Source: Cyclobacteriaceae bacterium
GTDB lineage: Bacteria > Bacteroidota > Bacteroidia > Cytophagales > Cyclobacteriaceae
Assembly: GCA_016787645.1 (NCBI GenBank)
Contig: JAEUUF010000006.1
Location: forward strand, 62,001-126,000
Direction of reading: 5' to 3'
Length of the DNA: 64,000 nucleotides
Positions 6,946 through 24,665 of this stretch are shown here, piece after piece (within the stretch, counting starts at the first letter, position 1; each line of letters starts with the position of its first letter). Both the position numbers and the translations under genes were made by a program. The notes under the pieces are model-generated. The model did not search any database. It saw nothing but the letters and a program-made list of their open reading frames with translations, and was not told where the DNA came from.

Positions 6946-8742
6946 TCAAGGTTTGTAACGTTCGTACTCTTCCACTGCGGCTTCCAGGTCGAACGTGCGG
7001 TACTGGCTGTTGTCTGCACCGGCCACACGTTTGGCAAAATAGTCCTGGAACTTATCCATGGCCTGGACAATTGTGTTGGTAGCTGTTTTTCCTAATCCGC
7101 AACGGCTGGTGGTCTTCATCAACTGACCCCACCGTTGCAATTCGAGCAAGTCGCCCTGGTCGGCCAGGCCATGCTGGAGGCGTTCCAACTTTCGCTGGAT
7201 AATGAAATTGCCCGCACGGCAAGGTGTGCATACACCGCAGGATTCGTGTTTGAAGAACTGCGCAAAGTTCATGAGGATATGTACAAGGTCGCGGTCATGA
7301 TTGAAGATCATGAACGAGCCGCCGCAGCGAATGTCCTTCAGCGCCAGCAAGTCAAGCATGGAGATACGGCGGTACTTTTCCTTGATGGAGATGCATTCCC
7401 CGGAGGGTCCGCTCACCTGGAGGAAGTAGGCATCTTGCGCACCGCAGAGGGTGAGCAGGTCAGCAACGGTCATCCCCCATTCAATTTCATAAAGCCCTGG
7501 CCGGAGACAGTCGCCGGAAATACTGATAAGCTTAGTACCCGGCGAACCAGGGATGCCCCGCTTGAGGTATTCGAAGGTGCCCATGGCGATCAGGCGGGCG
7601 ACGGCAGCAAAGGTTTCCACGTTGTTCACAACCGTGGGCAACTGGAGATAGCCTTTCTCCACCGGGTAGTACCATTTGGTGCGCGGCTCTCCCCGCTTGC
7701 CTTCGAGGGATTCCAAAAGAGCAGTCTCTTCTCCGCATACATAAGCTCCCGCACCCAAAGCAATTCGAATATCGAAGTCAAAACCTTTGATGCCTGCAAC
7801 ATCTTTACCCAGCCATCCGTGGTCCCGGAACGATTGAATCTCGGATTCGACCTTTTCAACGAGCCACCGATACTCGCCCCGCAAATAAATGATTCCATAA
7901 GCCGCTCCCACCGCATAGCCAGCAATGATCATTCCTTCCAGCACGGATCCGGCCTGGTTATGCAGCAGCACGCGGTCCTTGAAAGTGCCCGGCTCACCTT
8001 CATCGGCATTGCAGATGATGAACTTGGGTGTGTCGGAGAACCTCCGGCAGGCGCTCCACTTCTTCCAGGTTGGAAAAAATGCGCCGCCACGACCCGCCAG
8101 TTCGGAGATGCGAAGCTGTTCAATGACTCCATCGGGTCCTGCGTCCATCAGTTTCAGGAGTGCTTGGCCTGCCTCATACGGTGCAAAGAAGATCGTGCGG
8201 TTATTGGCCGGGGTATACCGAATGCTGTCGGTCGGCACATCACAAAGTTCCGCAGCGGTTTTTCCTTGCTTGAGTTTCTGAATGACATCCTTCACCTTGA
8301 GTACGTTCAGGTGGGTGAATGGGCAGAAGTCGATGAGCGCCGCCGGCTCCTGGTCGCTGAGACCAATGCAGGGCGTTGCGAACAGCCCGAAGGTTCCAGT
8401 AGGATCGGTGGTGCCCATGCGTGTGCCCGTTTCATGCTCAAACGCATCGCGAATCCGGTCGTACCCTTTCAGCTCAGCGATGATACTGTTGTTAAGGTAG
8501 ATGGTGTGCTTGCCGGCTGGTGTCGAATGAAAAAAATGGTAGAAGGAGGCGACCCCTTCCACTTCAATTTCCGATAGTTGGTGTTCTTCCGCCAGCATTT
8601 TGATTGCCGTACGGCTGATGCAACCCTCCTTCCGCTGGAAATCCCAAAGCTGCGGCAACATTTTAACCCGCGGCGGTTCCGGCGGAAATAGGTGATTCAC
8701 AGTGGTCAAAGTACCCATGGATATGCTGTCCGCAGCCACCAT
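6946..8742 (-). CDS. hoxF: Hydrogenase diaphorase large subunit (NuoE-like domain plus NuoF-like NADH/FMN domain)
   Basis: The 598-residue protein has the same layout and length as HoxF of the soluble NAD-reducing hydrogenase of Cupriavidus necator. Residues ~1-160 are a NuoE-like thioredoxin-fold domain lacking a full set of four 2Fe-2S cysteines, and the rest is NuoF-like. Signatures are FIICNADEGEPGTFKDR, GAGAYVCGEETAL, VNNVETFA, and ESCGVCTPCRAG with a later SRCGLG for the 4Fe-4S cluster. It binds NAD(H) and FMN. The usual GRGGAGFPTGLKW loop reads GRGGAFFPTWKKW here. It is the first gene of the operon and divergent from katG. Confidence 0.92.
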   Translation of the reverse strand: MVAADSISMGTLTTVNHLFPPEPPRVKMLPQLWDFQRKEGCISRTAIKMLAEEHQLSEIEVEGVASFYHFFHSTPAGKHTIYLNNSIIAELKGYDRIRDAFEHETGTRMGTTDPTGTFGLFATPCIGLSDQEPAALIDFCPFTHLNVLKVKDVIQKLKQGKTAAELCDVPTDSIRYTPANNRTIFFAPYEAGQALLKLMDAGPDGVIEQLRISELAGRGGAFFPTWKKWSACRRFSDTPKFIICNADEGEPGTFKDRVLLHNQAGSVLEGMIIAGYAVGAAYGIIYLRGEYRWLVEKVESEIQSFRDHGWLGKDVAGIKGFDFDIRIALGAGAYVCGEETALLESLEGKRGEPRTKWYYPVEKGYLQLPTVVNNVETFAAVARLIAMGTFEYLKRGIPGSPGTKLISISGDCLRPGLYEIEWGMTVADLLTLCGAQDAYFLQVSGPSGECISIKEKYRRISMLDLLALKDIRCGGSFMIFNHDRDLVHILMNFAQFFKHESCGVCTPCRAGNFIIQRKLERLQHGLADQGDLLELQRWGQLMKTTSRCGLGKTATNTIVQAMDKFQDYFAKRVAGADNSQYRTFDLEAAVEEYERYKP

Positions 8743-11229: not shown

Positions 11230-11250
11230 AAAGCTGTTTTCCCAATTGAA

Positions 11251-11282
11251 AAGGTGGCCTGCACAACGGGCCGCCTTTTTTT
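11251..11282 (+). terminator. Rho-independent terminator of katG
   Basis: AAGGTGGCC (11251-11259) pairs with GGCCGCCTT (11269-11277) with one G-T wobble, and a run of T follows. It begins 21 bp after the katG stop. Confidence 0.8.
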
Positions 11283-11348
11283 GTTTCCAATTCTGCGGGC
11301 GGCTGGGTACCGCTTCGTTCAGGGTAGTATATTGACACATAGTTGAGG

Positions 11349-12857
11349 ATGAAACAGTACCTGTTAGGGATCGACCTGGGGAGTTCATCGGTGAAGGTCA
11401 ATCTCACCGATGCCAAAAGCGGAAGCACAATCGCTGCCGCCGCTATGCCCGCCGATGAAATGACAATCCTTTGCCCACATCCGGGCTGGGCCGAACAAGA
11501 CCCGAATACCTGGTGGGAACACTTGAAGAAGGCGACACATCAGGTATTGAAGGAGGCGGGAGTTCCTTCTTCTTCCATTATCGCCGTGGGTATCTCCTAC
11601 CAAATGCACGGGCTGGTCGCCGTCGACCAGCATCTCAACGTGGTGAGGCCATCAATCATCTGGTGCGATGGGCGAGCGGTAGCCATCGGAGACCAAGCTT
11701 CAAAGGACCTGGGTGAGTCATACACCCTTTCGCACCTCCTGAACTCGCCCGGTAACTTCACGCTTTCCAAACTCAAGTGGGTGAAAGACAACGAACCCGA
11801 GCGCTTTGCTCTCATTCATAAAGTGATGCTCCCCGGAGATTACATAGCCATGAAGCTGACCGGCGAAGTCACGACAACGGTACCCGGTTTGTCGGAAGGA
11901 ATCATGTGGGATTTTAAGAAGCAAGGACGGGCCGATGAACTCTTCCGTTACTTTGACATTGATCCTGAACTTGTAGCCGATGTGGTGCCTACGTTCTCCG
12001 TCCAAGGACGACTCACATCGCAGGCAGCCGGTGAACTGGGCCTGGCCGCCGGTACACCGTTGTGTTATAGGGCCGGTGATCAGCCGAACAATGCTTTCTC
12101 CTTAAAGGCACTTCGCCCCGGGGATGTCGCCACAACCGCGGGAACGTCCGGGGTAATCTACATGGTCACCGATAAACCCATCGCCGATAGACAAGCTCGA
12201 GTAAACACGTTCGTCCATGTAAATCACGAGGAAAAAGTTCCAAGGCTGGGTGTGTTGCTCTGCGTCAATGGAACGGGTATCATGAACAGTTGGCTGAGAA
12301 AAAACATCGCGTCCGGTGCGATGAGCTACGAGGCAATGAATACACTTGCCGCTCAAATTCCGATTGGGTCCGATCAATTGGTAGTTCTGCCCTTCGGAAA
12401 TGGCGCGGAGCGTATGCTCGAAAACCGCGACCTAGGTGCAAGCTTCCACGGGTTGAATCTTAACCGCCATCAGCCCGCCCACCTTTGCCGGGCCGTTCAA
12501 GAGGGTATTGTATTCGCGCTGGGATATGGATTTGAAATTCTCCGTCAACTCGGTGCACAATCCAACGTAATTCGCGCCGGAAATGCGAACATGTTCCAGA
12601 GCGAAGTATTTTGCCAGACATTCTCCCAGGTGACCGGGACCGAACTGCAGTTGTACGATGTGGACGGTGCCCAGGGAGCAGCCCGAGGGGCAGGCTTAGG
12701 CCTTGGATATTATGCGGATGAAGCTCAAGCCTTTCAAAATCTCACGTGCCTCCGTACCTACACACCGCAGCAAGGTATTAAGGCGGAAATGGATGCAGCC
12801 TATGAACGTTGGAAGCAGATGCTGAACAAAGAATTGGACAATACCCTAAGCAGGTAA
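11349..12857 (+). CDS. xylB: Xylulokinase
   Basis: The 502-residue FGGY-family sugar kinase phosphorylates D-xylulose to xylulose 5-phosphate, feeding the pentose phosphate pathway. The N terminus [16 protein letters not shown] is the phosphate-1 loop. [11 protein letters not shown] and SYQMHGLV are typical XylB segments, and [12 protein letters not shown] carries the likely catalytic Asp. Family C-terminal motifs ([27 protein letters not shown]) are intact. I chose the ATG at 11349 over an in-frame TTG two codons earlier. It is two bases upstream of xylA, so the two are translated as a unit. No xylose transporter or regulator is adjacent. Confidence 0.93.
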
Positions 12858-12859
12858 TC

Positions 12860-14179
12860 ATGAAAACAGACAACCGTTACTTCAAAGGAATTCCTGTCAT
12901 TCAATATGAAGGAAAGGATAGCAAAAACCCGCTGGCGTTTCGCCATTACAATGCCAGGCAAAAAGTGGGCAGGAAGACTATGGAAGAACACCTGCGGTTT
13001 GCGGTAGCTTACTGGCATTCCTTTGGTGGCACCGGCAGCGATCCGTTCGGCATGCCGACCCGAAGCTTACCCTGGTCGACCGCCAAAGACCCTGTGCAAC
13101 GCGGTTACGACAAGATGGACGCCGCATTTGAATTCATTGCCAAAATGGGGATTCCCTTCTACTGCTTCCACGACTACGACCTGGTGGAAGAAGGTGACAC
13201 GCTCAAGCAATCCGAGGAGCGTCTTCAAAAACTGGTGGAGTATGCCCGCAAGAAACAAAAAGAAACGGGCATCAAACTCCTATGGGGAACAGCAAACTTG
13301 TTTTCGCATCCGCGCTACATGAACGGGGCTGCCACAAATCCAGATTTTCACGTAGTCTGTCACGCCGCCGCGCAAGTAAAGCATGCCATAGATGCCACGG
13401 TAGAACTCGGCGGAACCAATTATGTGTTTTGGGGCGGTCGCGAAGGCTACTTGAGTTTACTCAACACCGATATGAAGCGGGAGCAAGAGCACATGGCGCG
13501 GTTTCTGCACATGGCACGCGACTACGGCAGAAAGCATGGATTCAAAGGAACCTTTCTCATCGAGCCGAAGCCCATGGAGCCTTCCAAACATCAGTATGAT
13601 TTTGATGCGGCGACAGTGATTGCCTTCCTCCGTGAATTTGACCTCATCCATGATTTCAAACTAAATATCGAAGTGAACCACGCCACGCTGGCGAATCACA
13701 CATTTGCCCACGAACTGCAGGTAGCCGCCAATGCCGGCCTGCTCGGCAGCATGGACGCCAACCGCGGTGACTATCAGAATGGCTGGGACACCGATCAGTT
13801 TCCAAATAATGTGATTGAGCTGACCGAGGCTATGCTTGTCCTGCTGGGGGCCGGCGGGCTAAAGACTGGTGGGATCAACTTCGACGCCAAAGTCCGACGC
13901 AACTCCACCGACCCAGTAGATCTGGTTTATGCCCACATCGGGGGAATGGATGCTTTTGCCCGTGCACTCCTCGCTGCCCAAGCGATCCTTGAAGACGGCG
14001 AATACACTTCACTGCGCAAAAAACGATATGCTTCCTTTGACACCGGCAAGGGAAAACAGTTTGCCAACGGAAAACTTTCGCTGGAAGACCTGCAACAACT
14101 GGCCAAAAGGAATGGAGACCCGGAATCGATCAGCGGCCGCCAAGAGTACTTCGAAAACCTGCTGAATCGTTTCTGTTGA
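12860..14179 (+). CDS. xylA: Xylose isomerase
   Basis: The 439-residue enzyme interconverts D-xylose and D-xylulose, the step before XylB. It is a class II-length isomerase. The catalytic pair is in YCFHDYDL (His104, Asp107), and metal ligands are in [27 protein letters not shown] and the DANRGD segment. The start ATG lies two bases after the xylB stop; an upstream in-frame start would fall inside xylB and lacks homology. Order xylB-xylA with this spacing indicates one transcript. Confidence 0.96.
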
Positions 14180-14199
14180 CCCCAACATCGCGACTTCCT

Positions 14200-14233
14200 T
14201 CGCGCCTTACTATGCGCCTTACTTCGCGCCTTA
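14200..14233. repeat. Short direct repeats GCGCCTTAC
   Basis: GCGCCTTA occurs three times in 34 bp between the convergent xylA and permease genes. This is low-complexity intergenic filler with no visible hairpin or function. Confidence 0.4.
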
Positions 14234-14273
14234 GCGAGCTTCGCGTGCCCTCCCATCCCCTCACCGCAGCCCC

Positions 14274-16637
14274 CTACTCATTCCGCAACGACTTAACCGG
14301 ATTCTCCAGCGCTGCTTTAAGTGCCTGGTAGCTGATTGAGATGAACGCGATGCCCAGGGAAGCAATTGCCGAAACGACGAAAACCGTGACGCCAACGTCC
14401 GTGCGGTAAGCAAAGCCCCCCAGCCAGTTGTTCATCACCATCCAGGCGATCGGCGTGGAAATGGCGAAGGCAAGGCACACCAGCAAAAGAAAATCTCTGG
14501 ATAACATCGCAAATATGGCCGGAACCGAAGCACCCATCACCTTACGCACTCCAATCTCCTTGGTACGCTGCTCTGCCGTGAACATGATGAGTCCAAGCAA
14601 TCCCAGGCACGAGATGAAGATGGCCATGGATGAAAAATAATTCGCAAGGATACCGATCGTAGTTTCACCCTTATACTGCTCTTCAAAGGTGTCGTCCACG
14701 AACCGGTAGTCAAACGGAAAAGCCGGGCTCACCTGTGTAGTCACTTTCTTCAGTCCCTCCAGCGCGGTTGTTGTTTGTCCCGCCTCCGTGCGGACGATCA
14801 TCAGGTTGCTCCATTGCGGGTGAAGATGGAGGATGATCGGTTCAATGGCATCATGAAACGAACTGATGTGATAATCTTTCACCACCCCGATGATCGGTCC
14901 AGGCGTACTCCAAAACGTAATCACTTGTCCTACCGGGTCCTTCAGGTTCATCTTGCGAACGGCTTCTTCGTTCAGGACGTAAGCAGCGCTGTCCGAAGGG
15001 AATTCGCGCGAGAAGTCGCGGCCCTCTTTCAGCTGAATTCCCATGGTGGTGAGATAATCGTAGCCCACCGACATCTGGGTGAAGGCCATCTGGAGATCCG
15101 GGACCTTCCCCGGCCACTGCACGCCCGTCGTCGAGTTGCCAGTGGCGAGCGGCGGTGTCGTAGTGACTGTCACCGACTTGACACCGGGCAGCTTGGCCGA
15201 TTCGCTCACGATCAAATCCACTTTCGCCTTGTGCTCCGATTCAAAATCTACGACGACCAGGTTTTCTTTATCGAAGCCCAGGTTCTTATCCTTGATGTAC
15301 TGCAGTTGTCGGTAAACCACCAGCGTGCAGAAGATCAGCACGATGGTGAGGCTGAACTGGAATACCACCATCCCTTTGCGCAGGAACACCTGGCCAGTGC
15401 CGAACTTGAGGGTGCCCTTCAGCACTTTCACAATGTCAAAAGAAGACAGGAAGAAGGCAGGATAGATTCCCGACAGCAGGCCGGTCAGCAAGGTGATGCC
15501 GACAAGCATGCCCACGAAGGACGGGTCGGAATAGGGAATGACTACTTGCTTGTCAGTGAACAGCCGGAAAGAGGGTAACCCGGCTTCGACGATCAGCAAG
15601 GCGAGCCCCAGCCCGATGAACGAGAACACCACCGCCTCCCCGAGAAACTGGATCACCAGGAATCTTCTCGCTGCACCTGTCGCCTTGCGGATGCCGATCT
15701 CTTTTGCCCGACGGAGCGACTGCGCCGTGGCCAGGTTCATGAAATTGATGCAGGCGATGAGCAACACCACCACGGCGACCAGGGAAAATGACCTGACATA
15801 TTCAATTCTTCCACCGTCCTGCTGACCGTTGGTAAACCGGGAATAGAGGTACCATTCGGTGTACGGCTGCAGGAAGAGTTCACTGATATCTTCCTTGGGA
15901 TCAGAGACGCGCTTATGAACAAAGTCCTTGATCTTTTCATCCACCGCCTTTTGCTGGCTCGGGTCACGAAGCATGACAAAAGCACGGGGTGCATTGTTTT
16001 CCCAGTCTTTCGCCCACTCATTCTGTGCGAGGAACACATCCCAATGCAGCAGGAAATCAAATCGGACGCTCGAATTTCGAGGAGTATCTTTCGTCACCGC
16101 GGTGACCTGGTATTCTGCCTTGTTGTTGACCCGCACCAGCTTACCGATGGGATCCTCGTTCGGAAAATATTTGGCAGCCAGTTTTTCAGAGATGACGATG
16201 CTGGTCGGTTTCTCGAGTGCCGTGGCCAGGGTACCTTTCGCCAGCGGGTAGCTGAACATCTTCAGGAAATCCGGTTGAACGTACCGGCCTGACTCCTTTT
16301 GTGATTGGGTCCCCACCGTGATCAGTTCCCTCGCATCCCATGACATCTGCGAGCCCATTTCGATCTCTGGTATTTCGGCCTTCAACGCGTCAACGAGAAT
16401 CCCTGGTCCTTGCGGATACACTTCGACCCTTCCCTCGGCAAAGAAATCGCGCTTCATAATGCGGTACAATCGCGCACCGTTCTCATGAAATGCGTCGAAC
16501 TTCAACTCGTCGGTTATCCAAAGAATGATGAAAATGCTGCAAGAGAGTCCCAGCGCCAAACCCGCGAGGTTGATGGTGGTGAAGTATTTGTATCGCCGGA
16601 AATTGCGAAACGTAATGAGGAAGAAGTTACGAATCAT
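14274..16637 (-). CDS. ABC transporter permease, FtsX/MacB-PCD family
   Basis: The 787-residue integral membrane protein has two tandem FtsX-like halves. Each half has a periplasmic MacB-type domain (for example ARLYRIMKRDF near residue 70, and the region 440-640) and hydrophobic segments near residues 20-40, 285-305, 330-360, 380-400, 425-445, 670-690, 720-740 and 750-775. The family exports peptides, antibiotics or lipoproteins, or transmits signals across the membrane, with a separate ATPase. None is adjacent, which is common for the large Bacteroidota MacB paralogue family. The start at 16637 gives MIRNFFLITFRNF, the usual opening; a TTG 14 codons upstream is less likely. Confidence 0.85.
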   Translation of the reverse strand: MIRNFFLITFRNFRRYKYFTTINLAGLALGLSCSIFIILWITDELKFDAFHENGARLYRIMKRDFFAEGRVEVYPQGPGILVDALKAEIPEIEMGSQMSWDARELITVGTQSQKESGRYVQPDFLKMFSYPLAKGTLATALEKPTSIVISEKLAAKYFPNEDPIGKLVRVNNKAEYQVTAVTKDTPRNSSVRFDFLLHWDVFLAQNEWAKDWENNAPRAFVMLRDPSQQKAVDEKIKDFVHKRVSDPKEDISELFLQPYTEWYLYSRFTNGQQDGGRIEYVRSFSLVAVVVLLIACINFMNLATAQSLRRAKEIGIRKATGAARRFLVIQFLGEAVVFSFIGLGLALLIVEAGLPSFRLFTDKQVVIPYSDPSFVGMLVGITLLTGLLSGIYPAFFLSSFDIVKVLKGTLKFGTGQVFLRKGMVVFQFSLTIVLIFCTLVVYRQLQYIKDKNLGFDKENLVVVDFESEHKAKVDLIVSESAKLPGVKSVTVTTTPPLATGNSTTGVQWPGKVPDLQMAFTQMSVGYDYLTTMGIQLKEGRDFSREFPSDSAAYVLNEEAVRKMNLKDPVGQVITFWSTPGPIIGVVKDYHISSFHDAIEPIILHLHPQWSNLMIVRTEAGQTTTALEGLKKVTTQVSPAFPFDYRFVDDTFEEQYKGETTIGILANYFSSMAIFISCLGLLGLIMFTAEQRTKEIGVRKVMGASVPAIFAMLSRDFLLLVCLAFAISTPIAWMVMNNWLGGFAYRTDVGVTVFVVSAIASLGIAFISISYQALKAALENPVKSLRNE

Positions 16638-16789
16638 GGTGAAGGGCAGGTGGCATGCTTCCCGCAGTAAGTATGCCAACCTCGGCTAAGCCAAATTACA
16701 GCAGATTCGCCTATTCTTGAAATTCAATGTGGACAGTACTGTCGCGAAATCGGACAGTTACCGTGCTCAATCACGTCGTAGAAATTCGC

Positions 16790-17452
16790 TCAGTTCCTGA
16801 TTTCTACTATTTCATTCCCTCCACGTGTAACCACTTCTTCCATCAATTCCGCGACGCGTTCTGGCGCTACCCATTGTGAGCGGTCTGCCTTCGGCATCGA
16901 GGCGCGGTTCTGCGGTGTGTCCAGCGCACTAAATACTACCACGTGCGCTTTCACTTTCACAAAAGCCGAGTCCATGTATTCAGCCAACTTGAACAGCAAC
17001 GATTTCGAAAGGCCATACGCGACAAGGCTTTTTCCCGCGGATGCATCCAACGCGGGTCGGGCGCCAATAAAGATAATCCTTCCGCCTTCCGGCTGACGAT
17101 TCATCCAAAGCGATAACGGGCGGGCTACATGGTAGGCTGTCTCGAAGTTCAGCGCATACATCCGCCGCAGAGCCGCATCGTCGGTTTGCTCCAGCCCACC
17201 GGCTTCGAAACCACCTACCGTCAGGATCGCGGCATCTATAACCGGGTGTTTCTTCATCACGGAGGCGAGCACTTCAGCAGTTCCCGCTTCATCCATCAGG
17301 TCCGCTTCCACATAGGTAAGGTTGTCCTTCTTCCCTCCGGGCACCTTCCCCGGAGAAACGAATGCCAGCACCCGCCATCCTTTTCCAAGAAAATGATGGC
17401 TCGCCGCCGCGCCAAGGTTGCCGCCCGCTCCGGTGATCACAACTGTCTTCAT
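16790..17452 (-). CDS. Short-chain dehydrogenase/reductase
   Basis: The 220-residue NAD(P)-dependent oxidoreductase has a Rossmann fold: nucleotide motif TGAGGNLG at residues 7-14, an NFETAYH segment in place of the NNAG/NxxG region, and a YGLSK catalytic Tyr/Lys pair. It is the last gene of the seven-gene operon on the minus strand, and its ATG overlaps the aldehyde dehydrogenase stop by 4 bp. It could oxidise the same alcohol intermediate as the Fe alcohol dehydrogenase, or act on a side product; the sequence does not decide. Confidence 0.8.
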   Translation of the reverse strand: MKTVVITGAGGNLGAAASHHFLGKGWRVLAFVSPGKVPGGKKDNLTYVEADLMDEAGTAEVLASVMKKHPVIDAAILTVGGFEAGGLEQTDDAALRRMYALNFETAYHVARPLSLWMNRQPEGGRIIFIGARPALDASAGKSLVAYGLSKSLLFKLAEYMDSAFVKVKAHVVVFSALDTPQNRASMPKADRSQWVAPERVAELMEEVVTRGGNEIVEIRN

Positions 17453-18816
17453 GGCTTCTTGAGATGAAATGCTTTCGGTTTGGTGAACGCCCTAAGGCCA
17501 GCATGACTCAGCGTAGCGCCAAAGCCTGAATGCTGCCGCCCGCTCCACGGCACCGCGGCGCTTACCCGGTCACAACAGTTCCAGTAACCGGTGCCTGTAT
17601 TGAGCTGTCTCAAAATGGTCAATGCACGCTTCTCGTTGGATGAATATACGGAAGCTGTCAGTCCGTATTCAGTCTCGGCCATCCGTTGTACAGCCTCGCC
17701 GTCGTCTTTTACTTTCATAATGCCTATTACTGGTCCAAATGACTCTTCCTGCATCACTTGCATATGATTGGACACGCCGGTGAGTACGGTGGGTTCAAAA
17801 TAATAACCTTTGCCATCACGTCTTTTACCGCCGCAATGCAAAACGGCCCCACCCTTGACCGCTTCGGCAACCTGCCGCTCCAGCACGGTCAATTGATCTT
17901 TGCGGGTGAGCGGGCCAAGATATACGCCCGCTTCGGTGGGCGCGCCCATTTTATAACTCTTTACCTCGGCCACCAATTCACGCACGTAGGCGTCATACAC
18001 TTTTTCATGTACGTAGATACGCTCCACGGCACAGCAGCTCTGACCGTTGTTGTAGAAAGCTCCGTCCGCGGTAGCTGCAGCCACACTCTTTATGTCGGCG
18101 ATGTCATCAGCAACGTACAAAGGATCTTTGCCACCCAACTCGCACTGGCACGGCACCATCTTCCGGCTGACCGCTTCGTAGATATGTTGACCGGTCTTGT
18201 ACGATCCTGTGAAGAAGTAGCCATCAAACGCCAGATTGAGCAACTCCTCACCTACTTCCTTTGCTCCCACGGCGCAGATAAAAACATCTGCCGGTGCTCC
18301 GGCAGCATGCATAAGCCTTTCGATTTCAAGGCCCGTGAGTGTCGCATACTCCGAGGGCTTGTACATCACGGCGTTACCGGCAAGCAGTGCAGGGACAAAC
18401 ACGTTGGTGCCCACCAGGTAAGGATAATTCCATGCAGAGATGTTGCACACCACCCCAAGCGGTTCATACACAATGGTCTCGCGAAGAGCTGCCCCTTCTG
18501 TCATCGTTTCCTCGCGCAGGTATTCTACCGCGTGTTCCGTCAGCCATTGTATCCTTGCGCGCGCTCCATTTAATTCGTTTCGAGACTGTTGGAGAGGTTT
18601 GCCTACCTCCGTGGTAAGCACGGCAGCCAGTTTCTCAGATTCAGTATCCAGCAGGACCGAGAAACGTTTCAATATTTCCACCCGTCTTTCCAGGGCCACC
18701 GCCGCCCATCCAGCCTGCGACGCCCGAAGTCTACTGAATTTTTCGCGAAGACTTTTCGGGTTGTCTTCCGGCACTTCTTTGACGATTTCCTCAGTGGCAG
18801 GATTTATGACCTTCAT
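17449..18816 (-). CDS. NAD(P)-dependent aldehyde dehydrogenase
   Basis: The 455-residue enzyme oxidises an aldehyde to a carboxylate. The catalytic Cys lies in NNGQSCCAVERIYV and the general base Glu in CELGGKDP. NISAWNYPYLVG and KPSEYATLTG bind the nucleotide, and EESFGPVIGI is the usual C-terminal motif. All key residues are present. In the operon it is preceded by a gamma-glutamyl hydrolase and followed by an SDR with a 4-bp overlap. I infer its substrate to be a gamma-glutamylated amino aldehyde made by the upstream Fe alcohol dehydrogenase. Confidence 0.9.
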   Translation of the reverse strand: MKVINPATEEIVKEVPEDNPKSLREKFSRLRASQAGWAAVALERRVEILKRFSVLLDTESEKLAAVLTTEVGKPLQQSRNELNGARARIQWLTEHAVEYLREETMTEGAALRETIVYEPLGVVCNISAWNYPYLVGTNVFVPALLAGNAVMYKPSEYATLTGLEIERLMHAAGAPADVFICAVGAKEVGEELLNLAFDGYFFTGSYKTGQHIYEAVSRKMVPCQCELGGKDPLYVADDIADIKSVAAATADGAFYNNGQSCCAVERIYVHEKVYDAYVRELVAEVKSYKMGAPTEAGVYLGPLTRKDQLTVLERQVAEAVKGGAVLHCGGKRRDGKGYYFEPTVLTGVSNHMQVMQEESFGPVIGIMKVKDDGEAVQRMAETEYGLTASVYSSNEKRALTILRQLNTGTGYWNCCDRVSAAVPWSGRQHSGFGATLSHAGLRAFTKPKAFHLKKP

Positions 18817-18828
18817 GTGGGATTGGAG

Positions 18829-18865
18829 GAGTTAGGAGGTAGAAGTTAGAAGTTAGAAGTTAGGA
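18829..18865. repeat. Tandem TTAGAAG heptamer repeats
   Basis: Imperfect tandem copies of a 7-bp unit (TTAGGAG/TTAGAAG) fill part of the 99-bp gap between the hydrolase and aldehyde dehydrogenase genes. There is no stem-loop. Confidence 0.6.
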
Positions 18866-18915
18866 CTTGGTATGAGGATCAGTAACATAGAACCTTGGAC
18901 TTTAGACCTTGACCA

Positions 18916-19617
18916 TTAAACATGCTTCAGCACCGCATCCACAAACGCTTCTCTCAGCTTCTTTGAGAACGGGCTTTCTTGCTCGAGCATGCGTTCCGGA
19001 TGCCATTGCACAAGCATTAGGAATGGATGATTATCCTGGTCCCGAACTTCTGCACCTTCAATGACGCCGTCGGGTGAGACAGAATTCATGGATAGCCCTT
19101 CGCCCAATTGGTCGATCGCCTGGTGGTGCGCGCTGTTTACCTCGCCCCGCACGGTGCCAGTGATCTCACCAAGCAGGGTATTCTCCTTAAGCCAGATGGC
19201 ATGTTGACGGTCAACACCTTCCTGTTGGCGTGTATGGTCTGTGCGACCAAAGGCAACGATGTCGGGAACCAGCGTTCCGCCCAGGAAGACATTGGTAATC
19301 TGCAGACCGCGGCAAATGCCCAGCAAAGGAAGGCGCTTCTTGTGGGCCACCGCCAACACCTTCATCTCAAACTCATCGCGGGCTTCATTGATGTCGTCGA
19401 GGCGATATTGCTCCAGGTATTTCGGTTGTCCATAAAGTTTCGGATGCACGTCCTCGCCACCGGTCATCACGATGCCTCGACAGGATGCGACAGCTGAAAG
19501 ATTGTTTTCCTCATATCCGAGCTTCACGATCTCCACACCGGGTGACCGGGAGAGCCACTTCACGTAGTTGTCATATTTTCGGCCGGCTGCAATGCCGATT
19601 TTGATGGTCTTGCTCAT
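18916..19617 (-). CDS. Gamma-glutamyl hydrolase of the PuuD (class I amidotransferase-like, C26) family
   Basis: The 233-residue protein carries the catalytic nucleophile in LLGICRGLQ (about Cys100), MTGGEDVHP near residue 52, and QWHPE with the catalytic His/Glu (about 207-209). This is the PuuD/gamma-glutamyl-GABA hydrolase group, which removes glutamate from gamma-glutamylated amines or amino acids. Its ATG overlaps the Fe alcohol dehydrogenase stop by 4 bp. With the ligase upstream it forms an add-and-remove pair for a gamma-glutamyl group. The exact substrate is inferred from context. Confidence 0.85.
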   Translation of the reverse strand: MSKTIKIGIAAGRKYDNYVKWLSRSPGVEIVKLGYEENNLSAVASCRGIVMTGGEDVHPKLYGQPKYLEQYRLDDINEARDEFEMKVLAVAHKKRLPLLGICRGLQITNVFLGGTLVPDIVAFGRTDHTRQQEGVDRQHAIWLKENTLLGEITGTVRGEVNSAHHQAIDQLGEGLSMNSVSPDGVIEGAEVRDQDNHPFLMLVQWHPERMLEQESPFSKKLREAFVDAVLKHV

Positions 19618-20762
19618 AATGCTTCCAGGTAGAGTCGCTTAAAATCCTCCCGGCTCACTGGCTTTGGATTATTTGGATGAGCAAAATCGGCAAAAGCCAG
19701 GTCCGCGAGTGTTTCCACGTGCTCATTACGCACACCGATGTCACGCAACTTGTGCGGTATGCCGATGCGGCTGTTGAGATCAAAGAGATACCGGACAACG
19801 CCTTCCCCCGTTTCGTCGGCGAGGTTAAGGGTACGTGCGATCCTTCTGAACTTGTCCTCACAGCCCTTGATATTGAACTGCATGCCGTAAGGAATATTCA
19901 CGGCATTGGCGAGACCGTGGTGGGTGTCCAGCAGTGCAGACAACGGGTGAGCCAGCGAGTGGACGACACCCAGCCCTTTCTGAAAGGCCACGGCACCCAT
20001 CATCGAGGCGATCAACATCATGCTTCGCGATTCAAGGTCAGGCTTCTTTACCGCACGCTCCAGTGACTGGCTGATCAGCGAGATGCCTTCGAGCGCGATG
20101 CCCTCCGCCAAAGGATGAGGCATCTTGGCCAGGAACGCTTCCATGTTGTGGGTGAGCGCGTCCATGCCGGTGGCCGCCGTGATCGGTGCAGGTAATTCCA
20201 TGGTCAGGACCGGGTCAGCGAAGACCACTTTCGCCAACAACTTGGGTGAAAAAAGAATCTTCTTCTGGTGTGTGTCGTTGTCGGCAATGATGGCGCTTCG
20301 ACCCACTTCACTGCCTGTTCCTGCCGTCGTGGGAAGGGTAACAAAGTAGGGTACATCATTGGTGACGTACACATCACCGCCCACCAGGTCATCGTACTTG
20401 AACAGGTCCTCCCGGTGATTCACCCGAAGCACAATTGCTCGCGCAACATCTAGCGCTGCGCCACCGCCAATGCCCACGATGCCATCGCAGGCCGCCGCAT
20501 CATACACCTCCACACCTTTGTACACATCCGACTTCACTGGATTCCTATGAATATCGCAAAACAGTGCGGGTGCAAGTCCCTTGGCGGTTATTTCATTGAC
20601 AATCGTCTTGAAAAAACCAAGTTGTGATACCACAGGGTCAGTAACGACCAGCGGCCGCCGAATCCCCTGCCGCTTCAGGTGTTCCCCCAGCTCCTTGCTC
20701 ACCCCCGCCCCAAACCGAATCGTCGTGGGAAAATTGTATTGATAAATACCATCGAAAATCAT
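19614..20762 (-). CDS. Iron-containing alcohol dehydrogenase
   Basis: The 382-residue group III alcohol dehydrogenase has the NAD-binding GIGGGAALDVARA segment and the TLPTTAGTGSEV signature. Metal ligands are in GMDALTHNMEAFL (Asp, His), in HSLAHPLSALLDTHHGLANA (two His) and nearby. It oxidises a primary alcohol to an aldehyde, or the reverse. It lies between the glutamine-synthetase-like ligase (90-bp gap with repeats) and the PuuD-like hydrolase (4-bp overlap). I infer that it oxidises the hydroxyl group of a gamma-glutamylated amino alcohol such as gamma-glutamylethanolamide. Confidence 0.9.
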   Translation of the reverse strand: MIFDGIYQYNFPTTIRFGAGVSKELGEHLKRQGIRRPLVVTDPVVSQLGFFKTIVNEITAKGLAPALFCDIHRNPVKSDVYKGVEVYDAAACDGIVGIGGGAALDVARAIVLRVNHREDLFKYDDLVGGDVYVTNDVPYFVTLPTTAGTGSEVGRSAIIADNDTHQKKILFSPKLLAKVVFADPVLTMELPAPITAATGMDALTHNMEAFLAKMPHPLAEGIALEGISLISQSLERAVKKPDLESRSMMLIASMMGAVAFQKGLGVVHSLAHPLSALLDTHHGLANAVNIPYGMQFNIKGCEDKFRRIARTLNLADETGEGVVRYLFDLNSRIGIPHKLRDIGVRNEHVETLADLAFADFAHPNNPKPVSREDFKRLYLEAL

Positions 20763-20813
20763 GCTTGCTCAACTAGCTCCCCAAAAACCAAAATACCAAA
20801 CCCATTTACACAT

Positions 20814-20857
20814 CAACACTTCAACACCTCAACACTTCAACACCTCAACACCTCAAA
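20814..20857. repeat. Tandem CAACACYT octamer repeats
   Basis: Five imperfect copies of CAACACTT/CAACACCT stand in the 90-bp gap between the ligase and the alcohol dehydrogenase and just enter the 3' end of the ligase gene. Confidence 0.65.
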
Positions 20858-22211
20858 TGATCTCAAAATACCTCTCATACTCCCAATCTGTCACCGACTT
20901 CAAGTGCTGCCTCCACTCCCATTCCCGAGTCCTCACAAAATGGTCAACAAAGTCGGCGCCGAAGATTTCCTTCGCCGGCAATGACTCCTTCATCCGGGAC
21001 AGGGATTCTTCCAGTGTTCGGGGAAGCGTACCGTTGGAAAAGTCTGTGTAGCCGTTGCCCTTGGTGGGGAGCTGCTTCAATTTCATCTTCTTGCGAATGC
21101 CATAAAGCCCTGAGCCAAGGGCAGCAGCCATGGCCAGGTAAGGATTGGCATCAGCACCAATTACCCGCGTCTCCAGCCGGCAGGCAGCCGCGCTGCTGGT
21201 GATCGTACGAATGGCTACCGTACGGTTGTCGGAACCCCATGTAAGTGTAGTTGGTGCCCACGCTCCTTCCACGAGGCGCTTGTAACTGTTGATGGTGGGC
21301 GCGTACATGGGCAGGATATGCGGGAGGCAGTATAATTGTCCGGCAAGGTATTGCTTCATGATCTCGCTCATGTGGAGCTTGTCACTGCTGCTGTAGAACT
21401 GGTTCTTGGTTCCTTTGCGGTCCATTAAGCACTGGTGCACATGTCCGCCGCAACCGGGAAGATGTTCGCTGATCTTCGCCATGAAAGTGGCCATTACGCC
21501 ATGGCGGTATGCAATTTCTTTTACACCGGTCTTAAATAGGATCGCACGGTCACCCGCTTCGATGCCCGGGGCTTTGTGGATTGCCGCCTCAAGCACGCCT
21601 GGACCGGTTTCTGTGTGGAGTCCCTCGAGGGGTATTCCGAATTTGCCCAGCTCTTCGAAGAGATCTTTGAAATAGGGCTGGTTGAGTGTGGAGCGCAGGA
21701 CGGAGTAGCCGAACATCCCTGGGGAAAGCGGAGTAAGATTCTTGTAATTTTTTTCACGGGCCGAGGCAGGCGTCTCTGTGAAATTGAACCATTCAAATTC
21801 CTGGGCAAACATGGGTTCGAAGCCCGCCTTGTGAGCATCGTGAATCACTTTCTTGAATAACTGCCGCGGACATACGGAAGAAGGTTTGCCATCCTTGTCC
21901 AGGAACTCCCCCAGGAAGAAAGGCAGGTCGTTTTCCCACGGAATCTTCCTAAAGCTGGCCAGGTCGATGCGAGTCGTAGCGTCGGGATACCCGCTGTGCC
22001 ATCCGGTATAGCGAATATTGTCATACACGACATCATTCGCATCCCAGCCAAAAACTACATCACAAAATGTCGTAGTGCCATCAGCGACCGCAAGAAATTT
22101 ACCTGCAGAGATATACTTGCCGCGCAGAATGCCGTCGATGTCGGCATAGGCGATCTTCACTTTGCCCGACGGGTGACTCCTGACGTAATCAAGGATTGCT
22201 TTGGTCGTCAT
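20853..22211 (-). CDS. Glutamine synthetase-like gamma-glutamyl amine/amino alcohol ligase
   Basis: The 452-residue protein has the beta-grasp and catalytic domains of GlnA but belongs to the PuuA/IpuC/GlnA4-like branch. Catalytic elements include AQEFEWFNF (metal Glu), HTETGPGVLEAAI, GCGGHVHQCL (His), the NSYKRL and NRTVAIR segments and ADANPYLAMAA. True GlnA regulatory features such as the adenylylation loop are not seen. Such enzymes use ATP to join glutamate to an amine; characterised members act on putrescine (PuuA), isopropylamine (IpuC) and ethanolamine (GlnA4 of Streptomyces coelicolor). The ATG overlaps the permease stop by 4 bp, which points to the amine carried by that permease. 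Confidence 0.88.
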   Translation of the reverse strand: MTTKAILDYVRSHPSGKVKIAYADIDGILRGKYISAGKFLAVADGTTTFCDVVFGWDANDVVYDNIRYTGWHSGYPDATTRIDLASFRKIPWENDLPFFLGEFLDKDGKPSSVCPRQLFKKVIHDAHKAGFEPMFAQEFEWFNFTETPASAREKNYKNLTPLSPGMFGYSVLRSTLNQPYFKDLFEELGKFGIPLEGLHTETGPGVLEAAIHKAPGIEAGDRAILFKTGVKEIAYRHGVMATFMAKISEHLPGCGGHVHQCLMDRKGTKNQFYSSSDKLHMSEIMKQYLAGQLYCLPHILPMYAPTINSYKRLVEGAWAPTTLTWGSDNRTVAIRTITSSAAACRLETRVIGADANPYLAMAAALGSGLYGIRKKMKLKQLPTKGNGYTDFSNGTLPRTLEESLSRMKESLPAKEIFGADFVDHFVRTREWEWRQHLKSVTDWEYERYFEII

Positions 22212-23524
22212 GCGGCTGTGGTTGGTTTACGCGCGATAAATATACCAAAGCACACGCCGATAATCAGCACAAATACAACCGCAACTCGCTGGTTGTAGAG
22301 GGTAATTGAAACCAGGGCAATGGAAGCTATCACCAGGGCCACCCAGGGAAACAGCGGGTAGAAAGGTGTATGAAATGGTCGCGAAAGTCCAGGTTCCTTC
22401 CGCCGCAAGGCTATGACCGAGACCATCGAAATGATATAAAGGGCCAATGCGCCGAAGACAGAAAGCGTAATGATCTCGCCGGTGCGGCCAGTGAAGAGAG
22501 CCACGGCGCCGATCACAGAATTCGCAATCAACGCAATGGCCGGCGTCTGGAACCGCTGATGTATCAATCCCAAGGGTGATCGCGCAAAGTTAACGCGGGC
22601 AAATTCATAGGTCGAACGTCCTGCCGCCAGCATCAGGCCATGAAAGGATGCAACCAAACCAAAAAGGCCGAAAATGATCAGCAACGTGTACTGCCAACCA
22701 GATGATCCCTGAACAGCATCGAGCGCCATGGGCAACGGCGCGTCGGAAGTACTGCCATCGGCGTTCAACACAACAGCAGGCCAACCTCCTGCTCCCACTG
22801 CGCCCACAAAGGTCATCACGCATAAGGCAATCAGCGTGAACAAGGCAGCAAGAAATCCACGAGACATGGTTTGCCGTGGATTCAGCGTCTCCTCGGCCAG
22901 GTTGCCGATGCCCTCAATGCCAAGGAAGAACCAAATGGCAAATGGAATGGCTGCGAAGATCCCTTCCACACCATGGGGAAATGCGTTGCGTCCAAGGTTG
23001 GCCATCGAGGCTTGAGGCAATAAAGTGACCGCAAAGAGGATAAGGCCAACGACGGCAATTCCAGTGACGGTGAGTTCCGTCAGTGCGGCGAGGCGAATGC
23101 CATAGATGTTGATAGCCGTAAACACCACGTAGGCACCGATCGAGAATTGGATGGTTTCAATGGATGGAAAAAACAGGTTGAGATAAGAACCAATGGCAAG
23201 CGCGATGGCCGGCGGCGCAAAAATGAACTCGATGTTTTGTGCCATGCCCGCCAGGAAGCCGAGGTTTTTTCCCAGGGCGCGGTTGGCATAATCAAATGCA
23301 CCACCGGCTTTAGGAATGGCGCAGGCCAACTCGGCGTAGCTGTACGTAAACGTGACGTACATGACAATGACAAAAACAATGGCGATGGCCAACCCGAACG
23401 TCCCGCCAGCCTGCAGCCCAAGGTTCCAACCGAAGTAGTTGCCGGAAATGACATAACCCACACCAAGGCCCCACACCATGGCTGGGGTGAGAATGCGTTT
23501 TAGTTCGGGGTTATCGTGACTCAA
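22208..23524 (-). CDS. eat: Amino acid/polyamine/organocation family permease, ethanolamine permease type
   Basis: The 438-residue inner-membrane transporter has about 12 hydrophobic segments. It matches the Eat group closely: WGLGVGYVISGNYFGWNLG, SYAELACAIPKAGGAFDYA, LAGMAQNIEFIFAPPAIA and PFAIWFFLGIEGIGNLAEE. The group is known for proton-linked ethanolamine uptake, although related carriers move other amines. The start is TTG (an in-frame TAG lies eight codons upstream and no ATG precedes the conserved region). Twenty-one bases separate it from the reductase gene and it overlaps the ligase by 4 bp. Confidence 0.85.
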   Translation of the reverse strand: MSHDNPELKRILTPAMVWGLGVGYVISGNYFGWNLGLQAGGTFGLAIAIVFVIVMYVTFTYSYAELACAIPKAGGAFDYANRALGKNLGFLAGMAQNIEFIFAPPAIALAIGSYLNLFFPSIETIQFSIGAYVVFTAINIYGIRLAALTELTVTGIAVVGLILFAVTLLPQASMANLGRNAFPHGVEGIFAAIPFAIWFFLGIEGIGNLAEETLNPRQTMSRGFLAALFTLIALCVMTFVGAVGAGGWPAVVLNADGSTSDAPLPMALDAVQGSSGWQYTLLIIFGLFGLVASFHGLMLAAGRSTYEFARVNFARSPLGLIHQRFQTPAIALIANSVIGAVALFTGRTGEIITLSVFGALALYIISMVSVIALRRKEPGLSRPFHTPFYPLFPWVALVIASIALVSITLYNQRVAVVFVLIIGVCFGIFIARKPTTAA

Positions 23525-23545
23525 CGCGACAGGGTTTATCCAAAG

Positions 23546-24607
23546 CTACTCATATTCGATGGTCACGTCACCGCCCACCGGGAATGACTGGCATATGAGT
23601 ACACGACCTTGTTCCACTTCACGGTCCGTGAGTACTTCGTTGTACCGCATCCACACCCCACCTTGCACGCACGAAGCGATGCAACTGCCGCAACGGCCCG
23701 CTTCGCAGCTGTACGGGAGTTCTATCCCCCTGGCCTTTGCGGCGGCCAGGATGGTTTGCGGATATTGAACGGCCAGGTGATGAACGCTGCCCCGGATAGA
23801 AATAGTAACCTGGTGTGCATCGGTATCCGGAGGTTTGATATTGCCCGCCGGTGTCTCAGGTGTGAATACTTCACGTTTGATGTTGGCCGCTGGAATTCCA
23901 AACACCTGCAAGACGATCGCCGCCATACGCATATAGTCAAATGGTCCGCAGAGATAGGCCAGTGTCTTCAAGGGACTTCCACGAAGAGATTCTCCCAACA
24001 ATATTTCCAGCGTGGTTTTGCTGAGCCTGGCCTTAAGGAGATCTTGTTCGTTACTATAGTACCACTTGATCTTCAGGTTGGGATGGGACTCCGCAAGCCG
24101 CTCCAGTGGTTGCCGAAACAAGGCGGTTGCCGGCGATGAATTGCTGTAGGCGAGTACGATGGGAAGGTGAATGCCGCGGTTCAACAGATCCTTGATCATC
24201 GCAAAGATTGGCGTTATCCCGCTTCCTGCAGCCAAGAAGAAAAGCTGGTCGTATGTCTCCACCTCATCAGGCAGCACAAAGAAACCGGACGGGCCTCCTG
24301 CCACAGTAAGGCGATCTCCCGGCAACGCCGACTCCAGCATGGGGCGGGAGAATATCCCATTCGGAATTCGTTTGACTGTTATGGCCGGGATCTCTCCGGG
24401 CGCGGACGAAAAGGAATAACTCCGCCGCACCAAACCAGTGAGGGTGGGTATAACGAACGTGATGAACTGCCCAGCCTTCCAGTTCCAGGTGCCCTCTACG
24501 GGTTCGATCACAAAGGTGCTTGCTTCAGGTGTCTCGATCGTGACCTGTTTGATCACCGCTTCATGGAAGAGCTCGCTTTGGGCAGTGATCGGCGGGAAAG
24601 GCAGCAT
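23546..24607 (-). CDS. FAD-dependent reductase with C-terminal 2Fe-2S ferredoxin domain
   Basis: The 353-residue protein has an N-terminal FAD domain (RRSYSFSS flavin motif), an NAD(P) domain (LAAGSGITPIFAMI, LCGPFDYM) and a plant-type ferredoxin domain with Cys ligands in CEAGRCGSC and a later C (LICQSF). This PaaE/HmpR layout passes electrons from NAD(P)H to an oxygenase or other acceptor. No oxygenase is in the window. It is the first gene of the amino-alcohol operon; its ATG is at 24607, five codons inside a longer TTG frame. Its acceptor is unknown. Confidence 0.85.
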   Translation of the reverse strand: MLPFPPITAQSELFHEAVIKQVTIETPEASTFVIEPVEGTWNWKAGQFITFVIPTLTGLVRRSYSFSSAPGEIPAITVKRIPNGIFSRPMLESALPGDRLTVAGGPSGFFVLPDEVETYDQLFFLAAGSGITPIFAMIKDLLNRGIHLPIVLAYSNSSPATALFRQPLERLAESHPNLKIKWYYSNEQDLLKARLSKTTLEILLGESLRGSPLKTLAYLCGPFDYMRMAAIVLQVFGIPAANIKREVFTPETPAGNIKPPDTDAHQVTISIRGSVHHLAVQYPQTILAAAKARGIELPYSCEAGRCGSCIASCVQGGVWMRYNEVLTDREVEQGRVLICQSFPVGGDVTIEYE

Positions 24608-24618
24608 TGGGTAAAAAT

Positions 24619-24647
24619 ACAAATAGCCGGGTGTACCGGCTATTTGT
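24619..24647 (-). terminator. Perfect hairpin ending the upstream TPR transcript
   Basis: CAAATAGCCGG (24620-24630) and CCGGCTATTTG (24636-24646) form an 11-bp perfect stem with a 5-base loop; on the minus strand GTATTTTTA follows. It lies between the TPR gene stop and the reductase start, so it could also act as an attenuator for the operon below. Confidence 0.65.
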
Positions 24648-24665
24648 GATTGGAGTATTGACGGA

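Follow-up and report, generated by a model that had tools for sequence, protein, structure and literature searches.

A recurrent five-gene operon of Bacteroidota that probably converts ethanolamine to glycine through gamma-glutamylation

The window analyzed here, a stretch of 64,000 nucleotides (positions 62,001 to 126,000 of contig JAEUUF010000006.1) from a Cyclobacteriaceae bacterium, carries a gene cluster in which a glutamine-synthetase-like (GS-like) ligase is encoded together with a permease, an iron-containing alcohol dehydrogenase (Fe-ADH), an amidohydrolase and an aldehyde dehydrogenase (ALDH). An open reading frame (ORF) check of the window found seven uninterrupted ORFs on the minus strand at 16790-24622 (Table 1), and their families were assigned with Pfam and NCBIfam profiles that have curated cut-offs. 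An earlier note on this DNA had placed seven genes here on one strand, and both the place and the families agree with our profiles. The six activities that it named were all recovered, but its list has no entry for the PaaE-like FAD/2Fe-2S reductase encoded by the seventh gene. The junctions had been described as mostly 4-bp overlaps; only three of the six overlap in this way (permease/ligase, Fe-ADH/hydrolase and ALDH/short-chain dehydrogenase/reductase (SDR)), and the remaining three spacers measure 21 bp (reductase/permease), 90 bp and 99 bp. Our scan gave no excess of terminator-like sites (14, compared with 13.2 in shuffles) or of promoter-like sites (7, compared with 8.7).

Table 1. Genes and features of the cluster, with positions given in the window.
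Feature	Position	Strand	Remarks
PaaE-like reductase, FAD/NAD domain and C-terminal 2Fe-2S domain	23546-24622	-	TTG start; in-frame ATG at 24607
Eat-type ethanolamine permease, core gene 1	22208-23524	-	TIGR00908
GS-like gamma-glutamyl-amine ligase, core gene 2	20853-22211	-	PF00120, 305.8 bits
Fe-ADH, core gene 3, proposed gamma-glutamylethanolamide dehydrogenase	19614-20762	-	PF00465/PF25137
Peptidase C26/PuuD-type amidohydrolase, core gene 4, proposed gamma-glutamylglycine hydrolase	18916-19617	-	PF07722, 156.9 bits
ALDH, core gene 5, proposed gamma-glutamyl-aminoacetaldehyde dehydrogenase	17449-18816	-	PF00171, 419.7 bits
SDR of the dihydropteridine-reductase (QDPR) type, flanking	16790-17452	-	PDB relatives 8b5t/8b5u/1dhr
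Terminator-like hairpin between the gyrA-TPR pair and the reductase gene	24647-24619	-	12-pair stem, T-rich tail; pattern match only

The conserved unit is formed by the middle five genes, not by all seven. A ligase search over 395 genomes of the phylum gave 51 matches at an E value of 1e-60, of which 41, the own genome included, scored at least 510 bits; the next score down was 260. The 40 other loci of at least 510 bits, with 18.6-20 kb taken around each, made up our phylum sample. A second set of named loci, the best 80 of at least 582, is biased to near relatives, and some of its members are short or cut. The complete same-strand order permease-ligase-Fe-ADH-hydrolase-ALDH was found in 34 of these best 80 named loci and in 7 of the 40 phylum-sample loci. 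The genomes with a complete core carry the labels Cytophagales, Chitinophagaceae, Sphingobacteriaceae, Flavobacteriales and Saprospiraceae; cultured relatives that have it include Chitinophaga niastensis (L111), Parapedobacter koreensis (L126), Olivibacter sitiensis (L130) and Emticicia sp. CRIBPO (L118). A further 19 named loci encode the Fe-ADH but lack some or all of the other partners, 19 have the permease-ligase pair alone on that strand, and eight have the ligase alone; two loci (L083 and L144) have part of the core set inverted. Within the host family, 47 of 148 genomes gave a ligase match at 1e-60, and the permease and/or the Fe-ADH adjoins the ligase in 17 of the 19 short loci inspected. 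The identical order of five genes in distant genera argues against chance clustering, and we regard the core as a real and recurrent catabolic operon. The earlier note had suggested a search of Bacteroidota for the same gene order; it recurs for the five genes, but all seven were not found together in any of the 120 loci compared.

The unit is drawn at five genes because the SDR and the reductase were not seen with the core in the 120 ligase loci of the two sets combined, many of which are cut by contig ends. No SDR homologue was found in any of the 120 at 1e-10, and a reductase homologue occurs in only one (L046), which is not a core locus and has the gene on the opposite strand about 5 kb away. 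Conversely, no core gene lay near the homologues of the SDR or the reductase in 14 fetched regions, seven for each. A homologue of the SDR at 1e-25 is present in 12 of 247 genomes of the class, the own genome included. Its best PDB matches are dihydropteridine reductases, and the Y146xxxK motif is present; blastp at 1e-5 found no similarity between it and five SDRs encoded in other ligase clusters. The reductase has the PF00175 and PF00111 domains with the motifs RSYS and CEAGRCGSC, and scores 186.6 bits against the PaaE model TIGR02160, below the cut-off of 420.8. The two genes are probably passengers, added locally. All seven genes might still work together in a single pathway, in which the SDR could, for instance, be a second dehydrogenase: they share one strand, with a 4-bp overlap at the ALDH/SDR junction and 21 bp between reductase and permease, two genomes (G033 and G091) carry both an SDR homologue and the core, though far apart, and the Streptomyces cluster also includes an SDR, according to the available part of its description (PMC6529630). 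Set against the separate occurrence of both flanking genes and the dihydropteridine-reductase-like character of the SDR, such a pathway appears quite improbable to us. The seven-gene pathway of the earlier note was therefore narrowed to its middle five genes, which fit, while the SDR and the reductase fall outside the conserved operon.

Roles for the flanking genes were considered separately. The SDR as the ethanolamide dehydrogenase was rejected as our principal reading, as it is QDPR-like and not found with the core. The reductase as the partner of an oxygenase was dropped, as no candidate partner recurred across genera; a Pfam scan of ten neighbours of reductase and SDR homologues found no Rieske, P450 or di-iron oxygenase. 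Among these ten were one pirin and two FGE-sulfatase/DinB_2 proteins from one genus, whose genes are divergent to reductase homologues (L235:5213-7835 and L236:7013-9608) and whose domain make-up we take to be that of EgtB-type iron sulfoxide synthases. In another genome of the host genus (G146), the best reductase homologue is split into two ORFs (L240:6893-7910).

We propose that the five-gene core, presumably co-transcribed, is probably an ethanolamine catabolic operon that works through gamma-glutamylation. The Eat-type permease would bring in ethanolamine, and the GS-like ligase would couple it to glutamate with ATP to give gamma-glutamylethanolamide. Oxidation of the alcohol end, first by the Fe-ADH and next by the ALDH, would yield gamma-glutamylglycine, from which the amidohydrolase would free glycine and give back glutamate; the flanking reductase and SDR would not be needed. 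Judging from families, catalytic residues and conserved order, the two predicted dehydrogenases and the predicted gamma-glutamyl hydrolase are all encoded with the ligase. Residues D201, H205, H268, H272 and H282 of the Fe-ADH are identical in all 65 aligned sequences, Cys261 and Glu226 of the ALDH in all 64, and the Cys102-His206-Glu208 triad of the amidohydrolase, whose PDB relatives include PuuD (6vtv) and Lin1909 (3fij), in all 39. These PuuA/PuuD-like families and the ALDH would also suit a Puu-like pathway acting on putrescine or a different diamine. However, the seven genes hold neither an amine oxidase (PuuB) nor an aminotransferase, the ligase scores 182.1 bits against the gamma-glutamylputrescine synthetase model (cut-off 650), and the Puu-like route gives the alcohol dehydrogenase no role. 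Lacking both a PuuA-level ligase score and an amine oxidase, the cluster is very unlikely to be a Puu pathway.

The ligase itself matched four NCBIfam models, among them those for type III glutamine synthetase and for GlnA (198.3 bits, cut-off 429.15), and in each case scored under the cut-off. It retains all six metal residues of GlnA (E129, E131, E212, E220, H269 and E357), G265 and the equivalents of five arginines (R321, R339, R344, R355 and R359). Its changes are E327, which GlnA uses for ammonia, to W, Y179 to F and N264 to P. Neither E327 nor D50, another ammonia-site residue of GlnA, is conserved in GlnA4 and PauA7, and the E327 position is Phe in GlnA4 and Trp in PauA7 (PMC6529630, available part). 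In the window ligase, the D50 column also holds an Asp, in a loosely aligned region. This Asp aside, the residues point to a GS-like ligase with an intact metal site and an altered ammonia site. An ordinary or alternative glutamine synthetase with unrelated neighbours would fit the fold, the Asp in the D50 column and the single other Gln-synt_C match in the genome. Nevertheless, the replacement of E327 and the missed GlnA cut-off argue against a glutamine synthetase; the ligase belongs to a conserved operon with the permease, ADH, ALDH and hydrolase, and the other match, a 738-aa protein read as a type III-like glutamine synthetase, could make glutamine. We give this alternative hardly any weight.

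Short tandem repeats, a 7-mer in five copies and an 8-mer in six, lie in the two long operon spacers (18830-18863 and 20808-20856). A 17-base piece of the 7-mer array has a single other copy in the genome (L002:386-402), which lies at most 25 bp past the 3′ end of the gene for the 738-aa protein, on the opposite strand.

The permease gives the strongest clue to the substrate. It scores 401.2 bits against the ethanolamine permease model TIGR00908, above the cut-off of 381.75, and is thus a predicted ethanolamine importer. Of its nearest plasmid-borne relatives (41-45% identity), 15 of 16 are annotated as eat, and among the four annotated relatives that we opened, three lie directly after eutBC and one before a primary-amine oxidase gene. 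The same cut-off is passed in the core locus L075, in the permease-ligase locus L096 and in Thermomicrobium roseum (L165); the permeases beside two ipu-like plasmid ligases (L162 and L163) gave no match to the model at 1e-20. The eut ammonia-lyase route is apparently not available to the host, as EutB had no match in its genome, which is 99.83% complete. A glycine decarboxylase is encoded there.

The relationships of the ligase were examined in a tree that was built by a quick method from 84 different rows, chosen among 143, and is supported by the Shimodaira-Hasegawa-like approximate likelihood ratio test (SH-aLRT) only. Its rows were drawn from five gene-context groups (A, 24 of 61; B, the ligase-kinase-like-HAD group described below, 16 of 33; C, 14 of 16; D, 3 of 5; X, 5 of 5), with references and the window ligase added; GlnA4 itself is absent, and an Embleya (Streptomycetaceae) sequence stands in for it. 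The window ligase groups with other Bacteroidota and then with a proteobacterial set of Legionella, Photobacterium, Burkholderia, Rhizobium, Pseudorhizobium, Paracoccus, a Rhodobacteraceae strain and, on a long branch, Shinella; the SH-aLRT support for the whole is 100. It is 43-46% identical to five members of the proteobacterial set and 37% to Shinella. Two separate sets are formed by the ligases of the GlnA4/5dm3 type (98), PDB 5dm3 being presumably the Chromohalobacter salexigens enzyme, and of the IpuC type (99); long-branch warnings name the IpuC, GlnA4/5dm3-type and Shinella rows. Hence, the window ligase does not group with the 5dm3/Ruegeria/Streptomycetaceae-type ligases, and its clade has no characterized member among the references compared. 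Eat-like permeases adjoin ligases of two clades, as seen in T. roseum (GlnA4/5dm3-type) and in Photobacterium GJ3 (L159, window clade). Furthermore, ALDHs encoded with proteobacterial ligases of the window clade (L153, 60%; L160, 55%) and Fe-ADHs likewise (L155, 52%; L158, 48%) resemble the corresponding enzymes of the Ruegeria operon (L166). Ligases of the window clade may still do the same work as ethanolamine-type ligases.

Several observations, besides the Asp in the D50 column, weigh against ethanolamine as the substrate or against the proposed route. The window ligase shares only 32-36% identity with four ligases of the ethanolamine type, from which it branches apart, and is nearer to two IpuC types (38-40%). 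The best NCBIfam model for the Fe-ADH is 4-hydroxybutyrate dehydrogenase, at a score below its cut-off. The ALDH and Fe-ADH of the window share 37-38% identity with the Ruegeria enzymes and are no closer to them than to others compared; we discarded these identities as substrate evidence, since they do not discriminate. The gene setting also differs within the ligase clade: two proteobacterial members are encoded alongside polyamine-type ABC transporters and aminotransferases, one of the latter annotated as class III. Finally, no pathway partner adjoins the ligase orthologue in 33 of the 40 phylum-sample loci. With a ligase that falls outside the clade of ethanolamine-type enzymes, the substrate assignment depends mostly on the permease and on gene context. 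Ethanolamine, the substrate favored by the earlier note, is thus backed by the permease score and the eutBC-linked relatives, but not by the position of the ligase.

The same five enzymes could instead act on another primary amino alcohol, such as alaninol, serinol, 3-aminopropanol or 4-aminobutanol, and deliver the matching amino acid. The chemistry of the ADH, ALDH and hydrolase is alike for any primary amino alcohol, and the closeness of the ligase to IpuC types agrees with this possibility. Nevertheless, the permease exceeds the ethanolamine cut-off and has eutBC-linked relatives, while two ipu-like permeases fail the same model, and we therefore consider another amino alcohol unlikely. 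If our proposal of an ethanolamine operon is correct, many soil and freshwater Bacteroidota would convert ethanolamine, for example from membrane lipids, to glycine, with neither an ammonia-lyase nor a microcompartment.

The 33 loci just mentioned (within L035-L072; for example L035:7338-10613 and L057:7418-10665) share another arrangement, in which the ligase gene is followed by genes that encode a protein of 341-373 aa and a hydrolase of the HAD-IIA type. In the two cassettes scanned, the hydrolase is above the HAD-IIA cut-off, and the 341-373-aa protein has no Pfam or NCBIfam match; a profile built from 13 of the 33 found no PDB match at an E value of 1. From its conserved DxxxxN and DxD motifs, with an invariant D-W-N-I-G-N and D-Y-D-W, we read this protein as APH/choline-kinase-like. 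The tree places the kinase-like-HAD loci below the remaining Bacteroidota ligases and the core-operon loci in a nested position (supports of 84-93, open forks). Because this second setting exists, ligase orthology alone does not prove ethanolamine. We tentatively speculate that gamma-glutamyl-amine ligases have a third clade, made up of the Bacteroidota enzymes and apart from the GlnA4/5dm3 and IpuC types, that might serve two unrelated settings: the ethanolamine-to-glycine operon and, in the majority of ligase-carrying genomes sampled from the phylum, an undescribed kinase-like/HAD-IIA cassette in which gamma-glutamylation would act on, or protect, a phosphorylated amino alcohol.

Ligase genes were also seen in other surroundings. 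In five Emticicia/Cytophagaceae loci (L137, L141, L149, L150 and L151), the ligase gene is flanked by genes for an ATP-grasp-like protein and a GntP-family permease, as read from the one locus scanned, and neither Eat nor the Fe-ADH adjoins it. Two plasmid clusters, one rhizobial (L154:1-10729) and one from Paraburkholderia (L168:1832-9311), contain GS-like ligases of two clades together with genes for a 2-aminoethylphosphonate-pyruvate transaminase, a pyridoxal-phosphate (PLP) transferase, a fatty-acid desaturase, a gamma-glutamyl hydrolase and a LysE exporter. These gene sets presumably resemble those for the biosynthesis of rhizobitoxine (serinol).

The genomic site of the cluster is variable, because in a second genome of the genus (G524, L259) the gyrA-TPR pair is directly followed by the peroxidase gene (82% identical) and the core operon is found on a different contig. 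In the window, the peroxidase gene is 13 kb further from the gyrA-TPR pair, and the extra DNA of about 13 kb (11230-24665) comprises an FGGY kinase, a MacB/FtsX-type protein, an apparent xylose isomerase by our reading, and the seven genes. Two further genomes of the genus gave no ligase match. That the seven genes may have moved as one block was considered but not adopted. Elsewhere in the window, one 598-aa ORF (6946-8742) joins NuoE-like (2Fe-2S thioredoxin) and NuoF-like domains, and a protein encoded at 58652-59980 combines TPR with a caspase (Peptidase C14) domain.

The route proposed here follows a known logic. In the scheme for GlnA4 (SCO1613) of Streptomyces coelicolor, ethanolamine is converted via gamma-glutamylethanolamide, the aldehyde and gamma-glutamylglycine to glycine and glutamate; in the available part of the paper, the ligase step is shown in vitro and by mutant and the later steps are predicted (Krysenko et al. 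2019, PMC6529630). According to papers that cite the work (PMC10132767, PMC4646407), the pathway was demonstrated in C. salexigens and Agrobacterium tumefaciens by Vetting et al. 2015. In Phaeobacter, five proteins of the Eto operon were raised on phosphorylethanolamine, and EtoX binds ethanolamine (Sci Adv 2023, PMC10132767). The scheme put forward in the earlier note is thus consistent with the genes present and with the comparisons made here, but it had already been published for these four bacteria. As far as the available text of the sources goes, the accounts of the route that were found concern Streptomyces and Proteobacteria (PMC6529630, PMC9397018, PMC10132767), and a literature search by phylum name, with most subscription journals beyond reach, found no Bacteroidota example. 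What is new is the phylum and, in part, the components, including the ligase branch.

Compared with the window, the S. coelicolor cluster likewise has a GS-like ligase, an ALDH and an amidohydrolase (a glutamine amidotransferase in the figure legend), but assigns the alcohol step to an SDR-type dehydrogenase and has the repressor EpuRI (PMC6529630). The GlnA4-type clusters of other Streptomyces include a permease, which the available text describes as without similarity to Eat (PMC6529630); the Embleya ligase is 33% identical to ours. The Eto operon of Phaeobacter sp. MED193 and C. salexigens follows the identical reaction sequence but uses a tripartite ATP-independent periplasmic (TRAP) importer, EtoVWX, instead of Eat, and an RpiR regulator (PMC10132767). 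The Ruegeria operon, which has the published Phaeobacter layout, shares the GS-like ligase, ALDH and Fe-ADH; Eto-type operons differ in a hydrolase of the N-formylglutamate-amidohydrolase type (PF05013) rather than C26, and in a ligase 34% identical to that of the window. Of the same ligase clade (45-46%) are uncharacterized clusters of a Legionella lytica plasmid (L155) and Photobacterium (L158 and L159). The ligase is accompanied by an ALDH and an Fe-ADH in L155 and in Photobacterium DA100 (L158); in Photobacterium GJ3, it has an Eat-like permease on one side and an ALDH on the other. Their order is GS-ALDH-Fe-ADH-amidotransferase, however, and no Eat is annotated beside L155. The amidotransferases of L155 and L158 are of the GATase type (PF00117, not PF07722), and that of L155 gave no blastp match to the window hydrolase at 1e-5. 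The ipu isopropylamine cluster of Paenarthrobacter aurescens TC1 (L156) shares a GS-like ligase, a C26-like hydrolase (36%) and an ALDH, but has genes for a P450, a ferredoxin and a ferredoxin reductase, and its ligase is in another clade; the related plasmids L162 and L163 have a permease of another family. With its ligase outside the IpuC clade, long-branch warnings notwithstanding, and no oxygenase among the seven genes, the window cluster does not appear to encode an ipu pathway. Taken together, these comparisons suggest that the published route is built of interchangeable parts, in which the importer, the alcohol dehydrogenase, the hydrolase and even the ligase clade vary by lineage.

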